A DNA stretch of 64,000 bases, from NCBI GenBank assembly GCA_040218145.1, contig JAVJQK010000021.1, positions 1 through 64,000 of the forward strand. Direction: 5' to 3'. This document shows, one piece after another, positions 16,800 through 63,280 of the stretch. Within the stretch, counting starts at the first letter, position 1; each line of letters starts with the position of its first letter. The notes under the pieces were generated by a model. It was not told the DNA's origin, made no database searches, and worked only from the letters and a program-made list of their open reading frames with translations. Source of the DNA: Sandaracinaceae bacterium. GTDB taxonomy: Bacteria > Myxococcota_A > Polyangia > Polyangiales > Sandaracinaceae. Both the position numbers and the translations under genes were made by a program.

Positions 16800-17675
16800 A
16801 TGCATTTGAAGACGGCCTTCACGCGGGCGGCGCGGGCGATGCGCGAGGATGCGAAGCTGCACCTCGTCGCGGTCTCGAGCTTGACGGTGGCGTTCCTCTG
16901 CCTGGCCACGGCGCTCCTCGGCATGGCGAACCTCGGCGAGGTCGCCGAGGCGTGGGGGCGCACCGCCCGCATGAGCATCTACCTGCAGGACGGCGCGAGC
17001 GGCGACGACGTCGCGCAGCTTCGCTTGCTCCTCGAGGGGCTCCCCGAGGTGCGGCGGGTCGAGCACCACACGGGCGCCGACGCGCGGGCCGAGCTGGCGC
17101 AGGACGAGATGAGCGAGCTGTCGGGGCTCCCGGCCGACGTCTTCCCGGCGTCGCTGGAGGTCGAGCTCGCGGGCGGCACGGACACCGCGCGCATCGGCGC
17201 GGTCGCGGAGCGCATCTCGCGCTTCGAGGTCGTCGAGGACGTCGAGACCTACCATGGCTGGTTCGAGCAGCTCGCCACCCTGGTCTCGGCGGGGAAGATC
17301 ACCGCGGTGGCGCTGGCGGGCCTCGTGCTCCTGTGCGTGCTCTTCGTGGTGGGCAACACCATCCGCCTGGCCATCGCCGGTCGCCAGGGCGAGATCGAGG
17401 TGCTGAAGCTCTGCGGCGCGAGCGACGGCTTCGTGCGCGGACCCTTCCTGGTGGAGGGCGCGGTGCAAGGCTTCGTCGGGGCGTTGATGGCGGTCCTCCT
17501 GCTGTTCATCACTTTCCTCTCGCTGCGCACGCACATCGACGCCACCATCGCGGGCCTCGCGGGCATCCACACGGTGTTCCTCCAGCCCGGTGTGTCGCTC
17601 GCGCTCATCCTCGGCGGCGCGTTCATCGGGGCGGCGGGGAGCGCGATCTCGCTTCGTCGCTACATGGCGGTCTGA
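16800..17675 (+). CDS. ftsX: cell-division membrane protein FtsX
   Basis: 291 residues from ATG 16800, preceded by GGGGAGAGGACG. A cytosolic N-terminus, first membrane segment (about 23-43), an extracytoplasmic domain (about 45-160) rich in DxARxxLAQDE-type helices, then three more membrane segments separated by the conserved loop RQGEIEVLKLCGAS. This is the FtsX/MacB permease fold. The extracytoplasmic domain is expected to bind the EnvC-type activator encoded next; the ftsX TGA overlaps that gene's ATG. Confidence 0.95.
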   Translation: MHLKTAFTRAARAMREDAKLHLVAVSSLTVAFLCLATALLGMANLGEVAEAWGRTARMSIYLQDGASGDDVAQLRLLLEGLPEVRRVEHHTGADARAELAQDEMSELSGLPADVFPASLEVELAGGTDTARIGAVAERISRFEVVEDVETYHGWFEQLATLVSAGKITAVALAGLVLLCVLFVVGNTIRLAIAGRQGEIEVLKLCGASDGFVRGPFLVEGAVQGFVGALMAVLLLFITFLSLRTHIDATIAGLAGIHTVFLQPGVSLALILGGAFIGAAGSAISLRRYMAV

Positions 17676-18553
17676 TGCGTGCGCTCGGACTCTGCCTCGC
17701 GCTGACGCTCCTCCTCCCCGTGGGCGCCTCGGCGCAAGACGAGCTCGCCGACGCGCTCGGCACACTCGAGCGCGCGAGCGCCGAGCAGGCACGCGTCCAG
17801 GCGGAGATGCAGGCCCTGGTCGGCCAGCGCGGCGCGTCCCGTCGTCGACTGCGCGAGCGGGTGCGCGCGCTCCACCGCATGCGTCGCGCGGGCGCCCTGC
17901 CTCTCTCGGGCGGCTTCGATGCGCTGCTCCGGCACCAGTCGCGCCTCAACCGCCTCGAGCAGCTCGTGCGTCGAGACGTCGAGGGGCTGCACGGCATGGA
18001 GCGTCGCGTGGCGGCGCTGCGCGACGAGAGCGTCCGGCTGGCCGCCGAGGTGGAGGAGGGCGAGCGGCGCGCGGCCGCGCTCCGCGAGGCGGAGGAGTCA
18101 CAGCTCGCGCTGCTCTCGCAGATGATGGAGGACCCGGCCTCGTACTCGGACGGCTTCGGGCTCCGGCTCAGCGACGGAAGCGCGCCGGCGGGGCTCGCCT
18201 CGCAGCGCGGAAACCTCCCGCTGCCCGTCGGCGGCTCCGCGCGGATCGCGACGGCCGAGCGCGAGGGCGGCGCGGGGCTCGAGCTCGCCGCGACGGCCGG
18301 CGTCAGCGTGCGCGCGGTGCACACCGGACGCGTCGCGTACGCCTCCCAGCACCCCGCCTACGGGAGCCTCGTCATCCTCGACCACGGCGACGGCCACTAT
18401 ACGGTCTACGGCGGGCTCGGAGCCGTGGCGGTGCAGGTGGGGCAGCAGGTGCCGGCGAACACGCCGCTCGGCACGGTGGGCGGGCAGCCGCTCTTCTTCC
18501 AGGTTCGCCGGGGGACCCGCGCGCTCGACGCTCGGGCTTGGCTGGGGCTTTAG
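17675..18553 (+). CDS. EnvC-like peptidoglycan hydrolase activator with degenerate LytM domain
   Basis: 292 residues. Signal peptide ending ASAQ, a long coiled coil (about 22-150) and a C-terminal M23/LytM-type domain (about 180-292). The zinc ligands of active M23 enzymes are absent: the HxxxD region reads GLELAATAG, the YGHL region reads VYGGLG, and the HLHFE motif reads PLFFQVRRG. By family logic it is a non-enzymatic EnvC-type activator of amidases, recruited by FtsEX to split septal peptidoglycan. The start overlaps ftsX (TGATG), which strongly supports the FtsEX-EnvC assignment. A repeat element begins on its stop codon. Confidence 0.9.
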   Translation: MRALGLCLALTLLLPVGASAQDELADALGTLERASAEQARVQAEMQALVGQRGASRRRLRERVRALHRMRRAGALPLSGGFDALLRHQSRLNRLEQLVRRDVEGLHGMERRVAALRDESVRLAAEVEEGERRAAALREAEESQLALLSQMMEDPASYSDGFGLRLSDGSAPAGLASQRGNLPLPVGGSARIATAEREGGAGLELAATAGVSVRAVHTGRVAYASQHPAYGSLVILDHGDGHYTVYGGLGAVAVQVGQQVPANTPLGTVGGQPLFFQVRRGTRALDARAWLGL

Positions 18554-18785
18554 TTGTTGGGAGGGGCTTTTCAAGCCCCTCCCCCCCGCGGCGCCGGCGC
18601 GACGGTCCATCGCTCCGGTGCTCCGCACCTCCGCGAGGGACCGCCGCGCCGGCTCTGCGGGGCCCCCCCACCCAAGTCGGGCGGCTGCGCCGCCCGTGTC
18701 CCGCGCTCCGCGCGTGAGCCACGCGGCTCGCGCTTTCGCTTCGCGAAAGCTGGCCGCCCGCTGCCGCGGGTCAGCCGCTTGGGGG
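18550..18785 (+). repeat. structured repeat element, copy A
   Basis: About 236 bp, nearly identical to 37245-37485. It begins on the stop codon of the EnvC-like gene (TTAGTTGTTGGG). Stems in order: 18559-18583 (GGGAGGGGCTT/AAGCCCCTCCC, loop TTC); 18593-18608 with 18638-18653 (16 positions, one mismatch) enclosing GGTGC/GCACC; 18679-18685 with 18689-18695 (loop TGC); 18711-18716 with 18720-18725 (loop AGC); 18732-18739 with 18743-18750 (loop TTC). No credible coding frame. The first hairpin could act as a terminator, though no T-run follows it. Confidence 0.85.
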
Positions 18786-18972
18786 CGCGACTTCGCTTCG
18801 CTCGTCGCTGACGGCGGTCGCGACTTCGCTTCGCTCGTCGCTGACGGCGGTCGCGACTTCGCTTCGCTCGTCGTTGACGGCGGCCGCGACTTCGCTTCGC
18901 TCGTGCTGACGGCGGCCGCGACTTCGCTTCGCTCGTCGTTGACGGCGGCCGCGACTTCGCTTCGCTCGTGGC
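18786..18972 (+). repeat. 33-bp tandem array after element copy A
   Basis: Six units, the last cut short, of about 33 bp with core CGACTTCGCTTCGCTCGTCG followed by a spacer close to YTGACGGCGGY. Each core starts CGAC and ends GTCG, so every unit can form a small hairpin. One unit is a base shorter. The frames through it are Arg/Ser/Glu-poor junk without start signals. The core CGCTTCGCTCGTCG is shared with the array at 37486. Confidence 0.85.
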
Positions 18973-19055
18973 TTGGAGGATCGCGGCACGGCACGAGTTC
19001 GCTTCCCGTTTCCATGGCTTCGCGATGGATTCGGGTCCGGATCTGGGCGGCGCGC

Positions 19056-19426
19056 CCGCCTCCGCCTCCGCCTCCGCTCCCGCTTCCGTTGCCGCCTCCG
19101 CTCCCGCTCCCGTTGCCGCCTCCGCTCCCGCTCCCGTTGCCGCCTCCGCTGCCGCTCCCGTTGCCGCCTCCGCTGCCGCTCCCGTTGCCGCCTCCGCTCC
19201 CGCTCCCGCTCCCGCTGCCGCTCCCGCTCCCGCTCCCGCTCCCGCTCCCGCTGCCGCTGCCGCTCTCGCTGCCGCGCCCGCTCTCGCTGCCGCTCCCGCT
19301 CTCGCTGCCGCGCCCGCTCTCGCTGCCGCTCTCGCTGCCGCTGCCGCTGCCGCTCTCGCTGCCGCTCTCGCTGCCGCTCCCGCTGCCGCTCCCGCTCCCG
19401 CAGCCGCAGCCGCTCCCGCTCCCGCC
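19056..19426. repeat. hexamer-based low-complexity array 1
   Basis: About 370 bp of CCGCTC, CCGCCT, CCGTTG and CCGCTG hexamers in mixed order, with higher-order units such as CCGCCTCCGCTCCCGTTG. All frames stay open because of the composition, giving Ala/Pro/Ser or Arg-only polypeptides, so I call no gene. It follows the 33-bp array by about 85 bp; together 18554-19490 holds only repeat DNA. Confidence 0.85.
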
Positions 19427-36423: not shown

Positions 36424-36978
36424 CCGGCTTCTCATCCCACGCAAGCGTCGGGGTGAGCCCCCACACCTCGACCCTTGCCGTTGGCGTGGCGCGTCGCATG
36501 TTGAGCGCCGTCCGGCCCTTCGAGGCTCGCTCCGAACCCGCGTGCTGCCCGCTCCCCAAATGGTGACGGTCAGGTGACGCGGGGGCTTGCGCGACCGCCC
36601 CGAGTCGGGGAGACTGGGACCGTCCAAACGGCACCCGTCACGGACATTCGAACGCTTTTCATCTCGACGTATGGCTTATCGGAACCTCTGACGGAGCGAG
36701 CGCGGCAGGCGCCGCCTCGGTCCGCAGAGACGGCTGAAGATCCTGCGAATGACATCCGACTTCGCCAGGAAGTTGACCCAGTCGGATCCGACCCGTACGG
36801 GTCGGTATGGGAGCCGGTCCACCAAAGGGCCGGGACGAGAGCTGCCATGGGCCTCCTCAATAGCTGGTCACCTCGTGCGTTTTTACGGGATCCTGCCTCG
36901 TTCTGGGGCGCAGCCCATCCTGCGGACAGACACGCTCCGGACGGGTCATCCCTTCCTGGAAGTAGCTGGGAGACGCCG
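36424..36978. other. 555-bp stretch without a convincing gene
   Basis: The frame of the next small gene is open leftwards from 36574, but that extension has no ribosome site, mixed composition and no recognisable motif. The segment 36630-36920 is visibly less GC-rich than its surroundings, with runs such as CTTTTCATCTCGACGTATG and CGTGCGTTTTTACGGG. It may hold the promoter of the small gene or an untranslated RNA; nothing decisive is seen. Confidence 0.4.
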
Positions 36979-37248
36979 ATGGAACGCATGAGCTGGGACG
37001 ACATCTGTCACCGCGACGAGTTCCGCGGCCGCTGGGTGGCGCTCGACGAGGCGCGCTACGACGAGGACTCCGGTCGGGCGACCGAGGGCTCGGTGGTGGA
37101 CGTCGACGACGACCTCGTGGAGCTGTGCACCCGGATCCGTGAGTCGGAGCACAAGAACTGCGCGATCCTGTTCTGCGGGGAAGACGGTGCGCAGGAGCCG
37201 CCGGGCGCCACGAGCGACGAAGACCCGTTCCAGCACACGGCGCATTAG
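36979..37248 (+). CDS. small acidic protein, 89 residues
   Basis: Starts at ATG 36979 (MERMSWDDICHRDEF) with GGGAGACGCCG upstream. The sequence has a compact, apparently folded middle: FRGRWVALDEARYDE, then GSVVDVDDDLVELC and HKNCAILFCG, followed by a short disordered tail. It looks like one small alpha/beta domain with three Cys. I cannot name a family. Repeat element copy B begins on its TAG stop codon. Confidence 0.6.
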   Translation: MERMSWDDICHRDEFRGRWVALDEARYDEDSGRATEGSVVDVDDDLVELCTRIRESEHKNCAILFCGEDGAQEPPGATSDEDPFQHTAH

Positions 37249-37485
37249 TTTTTGGGCGGGGCTTTTCAAGCCCCTCCCCCCCGTTGCGCCGGCTCGACGG
37301 TCCATCGCTCCGGTGCTCCGCACCTCCGCGAGGGACCGCCGAGCCGGCTCCACGGGGCCCCCCCAACCCAAGTCGGGCGACTTCGTCGCCCGTGTCCCGC
37401 GCTCCGCGCGTGAGCCACGCGGCTCGCGCTTTCGCTTCGCGAAAGCTGGCCGCCCGCTGCCGCGGAGGATCCGCTCGGGGGCGCG
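37245..37485 (+). repeat. structured repeat element, copy B
   Basis: About 240 bp, nearly identical to 18550-18785, same strand, again beginning on the stop codon of the preceding gene (TTAGTTTTTGGG). Equivalent stems: 37254-37278 (one mismatch); 37288-37303 with 37333-37348; 37375-37381 with 37385-37391; and the two later hairpins. Relative to copy A a G-C pair became T-A in the long stem (37294/37342) and a G-C pair became A-T in the third (37380/37386). A few loop and linker bases also differ. Confidence 0.85.
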
Positions 37486-37880
37486 ACGTCGCTTCGCTCG
37501 TCGCGGGGGGCGACCTCGCTTCGCTCGTCGCGGGGGGCGACCTCGCTTCGCTCGTCGCGGGGGGCGACCTCGCTTCGCTCGTCGCGGGCGACCTCGCTCT
37601 GCTCGTCGCGGGGCGCGACGTCGCTTCGCTCGTCGCGGGGCGCGACGTCGCTTCGCTCGTCGCGGGCGACCTCGCCTTGCTCGTCGCGGGGCGCAACGTA
37701 GCTTCGCTCGTCGGCGACCTCGCCTCGTTCGTCGGGGGCGACCTCGCCTCGTTCGTCGGGGGGCGCCCTCGCATCGCTCGGCGGGGGGCGACCTCGCTTT
37801 GCTCGTCGCGGGGCCTCGCTTGCGGGCGGCGACCTCGCTTTGCTCGTCGCGTCGCTCGTCGCGGGGCCAGGCGTGGCGCG
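37486..37880 (+). repeat. degenerate tandem array after element copy B
   Basis: Roughly 14 degenerate units of 18-29 bp built on CGACCTCGCTTCGCTCGTCG with G-rich spacers (CGGGGGG, CGGGG). The units are more variable than those after copy A, with T and A substitutions (CTTTGCTCG, CTCGTTCG), and several are shortened. Frames through it are open by composition only. It ends a few bases before the stop of the Ser/Thr kinase gene. Confidence 0.8.
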
Positions 37881-51203: not shown

Positions 51204-54845
<3,642 letters not shown>

Positions 54846-62874: not shown

Positions 62875-63280
62875 CCTCCGAGTCGGCTTCCGCGACGGCC
62901 TCCGCGACCGAGTCCGGATCCGCTTCCGAGTCCGCGCCCGCTTCCGAGTCCGCGCCCGCTTCCGAGTCCGCGCCCGCTTCCGAGTCCGCGCCCGCTTCCG
63001 AGTCCGCGCCCGCTTCCGAGTCCGCGCCCGCTTCCGAGTCCGCGCCCGCTTCCGAGTCCGCGTCCGCTTCCGCATCCGCGCCCGCCACCGAGTCCGCATC
63101 CGCGCCCGCTTCCGAGTCCGCTTCCGCGACCGAGTCCGCGCCCGCATCCGCGCCCGCATCCGCGCCCGCTTCCGAGTCCGCGCCCGCTTCCGAGTCCGCG
63201 CCCGCTTCGAGTCCGCGCCCGCTTCCGAGTCCGCGCCCGCTTCCGAGTCTGCGCCCGCTTCCGAGTCTGCGCCCGAGCTC
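62875..63280. repeat. hexamer array 3, intergenic
   Basis: About 400 bp of TCCGAG, TCCGCG, CCCGCT and TCCGCT hexamers, mostly as an 18-bp unit TCCGAGTCCGCGCCCGCT repeated about fifteen times with variants. All frames remain open for compositional reasons (Ala-Ser-Glu, Arg-rich or Gly-Ala-Asp). It fills the gap between convergent kinase and antiporter genes; the rest of 62790-63345 shows nothing else. Confidence 0.9.

Follow-up and report, generated by a model that had tools for sequence, protein, structure and literature searches.

The two copies in the window

The first 64 000 nucleotides of contig JAVJQK010000021.1 from a Sandaracinaceae bacterium (hereafter the window) contain two nearly identical, hairpin-rich, non-coding stretches. 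What kind of element do they represent, and what keeps their arms complementary? A sequence-only reading had described them as a two-copy feature in which two independent, pair-keeping changes suggest that the fold is selected. Their near-identity on the same strand holds: copy A (18550–18785) and copy B (37245–37481) share 220 identities over 236 aligned positions, with one gap (93%). The reported pair differences are also present, G18599–C18647 in copy A against T37294–A37342 in copy B, and G18684–C18690 in copy A against A37380–T37386 in copy B, and the predicted fold contains all of these pairs. The majority of the hairpins have three-base loops, as had been described, and copy A folds much better than shuffled sequences do (z-score −9.3 as RNA and −8.7 as DNA; 0 of 200 shuffles fold equally well). 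No known RNA family had been recognised in the two stretches, and a scan of the window with the Rfam 15 covariance models at gathering thresholds likewise gave 0 matches.

A same-strand TAG lies 5 nt upstream of the start of both copies, and a tandem array lies directly downstream of each; all features described here are on the forward strand. The TAG at 18551–18553 ends the gene 16952–18553, which encodes an M23 peptidase domain (ORF list, gene finder and Pfam PF01551). Copy A is a full-length type-1 element at 18554–18780, delimited by comparison of the genome copies and by a 16-copy alignment (A2). Its predicted fold begins with hairpin A at 18559–18583 (GGGAGGGGCTT-TTC-AAGCCCCTCCC), followed by hairpin B at 18584–18662, whose long, variable stem includes 18599/18647 and whose outer CCCC...GGGG is conserved class-wide. 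The C-rich tail CCCCCCCACCC occupies 18663–18673 (alignments A1 and A2). The third predicted stem, CGGGCGGC-TGC-GCCGCCCG at 18678–18696, contains 18684/18690, and a last hairpin, GCGGC...GCCGC at 18723–18757, carries a G–C/C–G swap in 5 of the 16 aligned copies. The array at 18786–18973, detected with TRF, has a 33-nt unit, CGCGACTTCGCTTCGCTCGTCGCTGACGGCGGC.

The second TAG (37246–37248) ends a 224-codon gene at 36574–37248, found in the ORF list and by the gene finder, for which a Pfam search gave 0 matches. Copy B, delimited from the genome copies and the 16-copy alignment, extends over 37249–37475, with hairpin A at 37254–37278, hairpin B at 37279–37357 and the third stem, containing 37380/37386, at 37374–37392; hairpin A and the third stem are those of the predicted fold. 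The array that follows (37476–37820; TRF) is built of a 27-nt unit and its multiples. Tandem arrays near the copies occur at 18786–18973, 19051–19426 and 37476–37820, with units such as GCGAC-TTCGCTTCGCTC-GTCGC, and many other copies in the same genome are followed by similar TTCGCTTCGC arrays. Further tandem arrays, with 18-nt units or as long hexanucleotide runs (TCCGCC, CCGTTC), lie in the window at 52573–53140 and 62908–63275.

Size and distribution of the family

The feature is not limited to two copies, and the host genome and its relatives show that the sequence is not unique to these two loci. In the window's own genome (G000, 11.06 Mb), about 16 copies are nearly full-length, and there are partial copies in tandem besides. 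The element is short, multi-copy and non-coding, about 230 nt long in the window's species and about 120 nt in Sandaracinus. Comparison across genera defines its core as hairpin A (GGAGGGG...CCCCTCC) abutting hairpin B (CCCC...GGC-AAA-GCC...GGGG), then a C-rich tail (CCCCCC[A/T]CCC).

A covariance model of this core, for which E-values are rough, has 77 matches at E ≤ 0.001 in G000 and 24 in G057, a second genome of the window's species. At the same threshold it has 30 and 64 matches in G001 and G006, two closed Sandaracinus genomes; G001, a single contig of 10 327 335 bases, is presumed to be Sandaracinus amylolyticus DSM 53668. The relative G004, presumed to be the MAG ACE_MYX11, gives 62 matches at E ≤ 0.01; a parallel element of the same layout is present there about 50 times. 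Closely similar elements are present on contigs of the Sandaracinaceae MAG MED-G138, which match G057 at the compared loci. In total, 35 of the 290 genomes of the class, in several families, match the core. Since the other 255 genomes, many of them large, have no match, composition alone does not produce it.

In G007 the core lies within a composite repeat (L360–L366), nearly identical among copies, between two other palindromes, CTACACATGA...TCATGTGTAG and AACAGAATCGCC...GGCGATTCTGTT. A pattern match in a Neomarinimicrobiota contig (L128) proved not to be the element. Literature searches found no published description of the repeat, and it is not mentioned in the searched passages of the S. 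amylolyticus genome paper.

Position behind stop codons

Genes around the 67 copies in the two closed genomes G001 and G006 were called with a simple, home-made gene finder based on codon usage. Of these copies, 49 start between −3 and +12 nt from a same-strand stop codon, and the distances have a sharp mode at 6–7 nt. Were insertion into non-coding DNA uniform, 3.4 per cent of copies would fall in this interval, which gives p of about 1e-56 under an assumption of independence that the copies do not fully satisfy. Of the other copies, many occur in tandem or are inverted, with the far end pointing to the stop codon of a reverse-strand gene. The same position recurs in G004, where 17 of 20 copies lie at most 20 nt from a stop, and in G000, where nearly all type-1 copies are 4–14 nt behind a stop and one follows a tRNA gene instead; many core copies of G000 are away from stops, mostly in tandem. 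In G007 and in the remote families represented by G034, G041 and G237, the anchoring is weaker, different or beyond the gene finder.

The stop codons next to elements are of the same types as the background (TGA in 41 of 49 cases versus 255 of 292). The TGA sequence itself is therefore not what is preferred, and its recognition as a DNA sequence was rejected. The orientation of the next gene also follows the background, with 33 co-directional to 17 convergent neighbours versus 183 to 92. Copies are found inside operons as well, for example in G001 between atpD and atpC (genes recognised by eye), and at position 2431718 of G006 the element sits at an ATGA/GTGA stop–start overlap.

Filled and empty sites

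Among 50 stop-adjacent copies, only one pair of carrier genes is common to G001 and G006, so that a conserved function at particular genes was rejected. For 28 carrier genes of G006 the G001 ortholog was located: 24 orthologs are without the element, their coding end being otherwise intact, two have the element (one degenerate) and two have other hairpin-rich DNA. At one G001 locus (L323) the stop codon of the G006:694484 ortholog is followed by hairpin-rich DNA of another kind. This stretch terminates in CCCCCTTGCTCTTGCTC, a sequence similar to the 3′ terminus of the Sandaracinus element, and is possibly a second, related repeat family. Between the two genomes of the window's species, synteny breaks exactly at the stop codon next to one G000 copy (L005 versus L409 in G057), which leaves no insertion junction to compare at this locus; the gene at this break is 99 per cent identical.

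Target duplications of variable length are clear at three G006 sites and were not seen at most others. They are CGGTAACT around a TAA stop (site 10191446), (C)GGGCGCGCAGCG just before the stop (site 8196486) and a longer, diverged duplication (site 10187024). At two further filled sites a TGA-containing motif is repeated on the right side. The element does not end in perfect inverted repeats; close to each end there is a directly repeated GCTTGC.

These data bear on a reading in which the element forms structured RNA 3′ ends, as U-tract-less terminators or mRNA stabilisers, under RNA-level selection. A place right behind stops in gene orientation would suit that role, as would a conserved, very stable fold, a class-wide occurrence and a C-rich tail that might act as a Rho-type signal. 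It fits less well with the mostly non-orthologous carriers in two species of one genus, with the empty state of most orthologous sites, with the lack of preference for operon ends and with the near absence of G–U pairs (see below). Furthermore, a U-tailed hairpin is present downstream of the gene at 6 of 26 G001 sites, and at several such sites in G006 the element lies between the stop codon and the U-tailed hairpin. An operon-end terminator was rejected, because the orientation of neighbours equals the background and native terminators persist downstream at several sites. The core itself lacks the form of an intrinsic terminator, its hairpins being followed by C6[A/T]C3 and no U-tract, and a terminator scan detected none at the core. 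On balance, we consider selection for RNA 3′ ends to be unlikely.

We conclude instead that the element is a mobile repeat of a MITE-like, non-autonomous kind with its anchor at stop codons, because most sites in the sister species are empty, some filled sites carry duplications and native terminators persist downstream.

Conservation of the fold and exchange of hairpins

The proposal that the fold is selected was examined by covariation on 95 distinct cores from several families, in an alignment (A3) fitted to the covariance model and hence leaning towards structure. Standard pairs make up 96.4 per cent of the pair cells, and there are 337 double-sided changes versus 111 expected in shuffles, against 13 one-sided ones; sliding controls of the pairing collapse. 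Only 20 of 1887 cells are G–U pairs. Among the 16 full copies of G000, 20 of 70 pairs show double-sided changes. Conservation of the fold across lineages is thus borne out.

The argument from two independent compensations does not stand, because the swaps can be whole-hairpin exchanges between copies. The stem containing 18684/18690 has two alleles, and each is found repeatedly in the set of 16 copies, stem and loop together as one block. At the copy B locus, the 500 nt upstream match between G057 and the window at 498 positions, and the sequenced part of the G057 ortholog (L411) departs from copy B at two places only: a single additional G next to hairpin A, and hairpin B, both arms of which are entirely changed. 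The unusual hairpin B of copy B is common to both window copies. As the G057 copy differs precisely in the hairpin that the window copies share, the aligned sequences indicate that whole hairpins are exchanged as blocks between copies, with ectopic conversion as the putative route. The two pair swaps in the window are best interpreted as alleles exchanged in this way and not as independent point events. Double-sided changes almost without G–U pairs also fit selection on RNA alone less well than maintenance at the DNA level, templated by the hairpin.

Candidate mobilising enzymes

The search for a mobilising enzyme covered Y1 transposases and reverse transcriptases, and neither tracks the element. 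Mobilisation as a REP-like repeat, by a RAYT-type or IS200/IS605-type Y1 (HUH) transposase, would explain a palindromic, extragenic and oriented element. Y1_Tnp genes are present in G000, G004, G007, G034 and G041, and in G004 one of them lies about 700 nt away from an element. No Y1_Tnp match was obtained in the closed genomes G001 and G006, with their 30 and 64 core copies, and on this ground a Y1 mobiliser was rejected. Target duplications, which are not expected of the Y1 class, are seen here at some sites. A GTAG REP often provides the stop codon of an adjacent ORF (PMC3733652), which would suit a repeat at gene ends, but the present element has no fixed GTAG tag and its stop-codon types are those of the background. 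Mobilisation by a Y1 enzyme is accordingly improbable.

Retroposition, that is, copying through RNA by a reverse transcriptase of the group II intron type from elements transcribed at mRNA 3′ ends, would account for an orientation that follows transcription and for duplications of varying length, and G001 has 14 RVT_1 matches, eight of them strong and similar. RVT_1 is nevertheless missing from G004 and G034, both rich in the element, and G003, where the core model has no match, possesses it. A reverse transcriptase was rejected as the mobiliser for this lack of co-occurrence, and we regard retroposition as highly improbable. G001 also contains near-identical reverse-transcriptase elements of about 2.08 kb (L422, L430, L436, L439 and L441), which are probably mobile group II introns; the repeat core was not found in their fetched flanks.

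Proposed mechanism

The element is called MITE-like and not a strict MITE since perfect inverted ends are missing and no transposase was found in the searches for Y1 and reverse transcriptase. We propose that an as yet unnamed enzyme inserts it into DNA just behind the end of translation, where the insert would be tolerated because the genes stay intact; the hairpins may be what this enzyme recognises. The complementarity of the arms would be kept at the DNA level, by block exchange between copies or by hairpin-templated repair, possibly helped by additional selection on the form recognised by the mobilising machinery. Transcribed together with the gene, the element would give the mRNA a structured 3′ end, which may slow 3′-to-5′ decay. 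It is probably not the main terminator of the gene, because a native U-tailed terminator lies downstream at several sites. Taken as a whole, this account of a mobile repeat behind stops, inserted by an enzyme, maintained in its arms as DNA and transcribed as a structured mRNA 3′ end, seems to us probable.

A bolder version, which we put forward only tentatively, holds that the target is found through gene expression and not through DNA sequence, so that the element inserts where translation ends. The target could be, for example, the DNA past the stop codon, a stretch free of ribosomes in which the non-template strand can lie open. The gene orientation and the use of any stop codon would then follow from an enzyme not yet described, with hairpins block-copied among family members.

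Comparison with known repeats

Mobile repeats behind stop codons have several partial parallels. The element works most like YPAL/RU-2 of Yersinia, a repeat of about 168 bp with internal inverted repeats, not A+T-rich and without TA ends, whose target duplications vary from 3 to 26 bp (PMC2229807). YPAL/RU-2 also has filled and empty sites between relatives, is linked to upstream genes and is suspected of affecting their mRNA (PMC2229807). It differs in fold and sequence; the literature searched gave no stop-codon anchoring at fixed spacing for it, and the present element is anchored and has a core common to the whole class.

The MIRU of mycobacteria target DTGA. Their insertion sites are start codons, and they contain an ORF that is translationally coupled to the neighbouring gene (PMC12548453). 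Like MIRU, the element is short, apparently mobile and placed at gene junctions in gene orientation, occurs in tandem and leaves its neighbours intact (PMC12548453). The G006 copy at the ATGA/GTGA overlap is a further likeness. Unlike MIRU, it is hairpin-rich and also lies at convergent gene ends, which have no start codon to couple to. Because 17 of the 50 stop-adjacent copies face a convergent gene, translational coupling cannot be general.

REPs are 20–40 bp long and bear GTAG or CGTC tags (PMC3733652). The element resembles REP/BIME in being palindromic, extragenic, near gene ends and in groups, with termini that may supply a stop codon (PMC3733652), but its unit of about 120–230 nt has no GTAG/CGTC tag and no Y1 transposase accompanies it in the two closed, element-rich genomes. 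The ERIC and NEMIS/Correia MITEs have terminal inverted repeats and TA ends (PMC2229807); like the element, they are hairpin-forming and non-autonomous, measure about 100–170 bp and can affect mRNA stability (PMC2229807). They are not reported as anchored behind stops in that work, in contrast to the present repeat. We therefore file the element as a new family, a variant of the small non-autonomous mobile repeats that is set apart by its stop-codon anchoring and class-wide core.

The block exchange of hairpins is a warning for the discovery of RNAs by covariation, since double changes that keep pairing can arise in this way without selection on RNA. The family appears undescribed and occurs in 35 of the 290 sampled genomes of the class containing Sandaracinaceae. 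A precise anchor a few nucleotides behind the stop codon is not reported for related repeat families in the literature consulted, and dozens of filled and empty sites are available for asking how a mobile sequence recognises the ends of genes.
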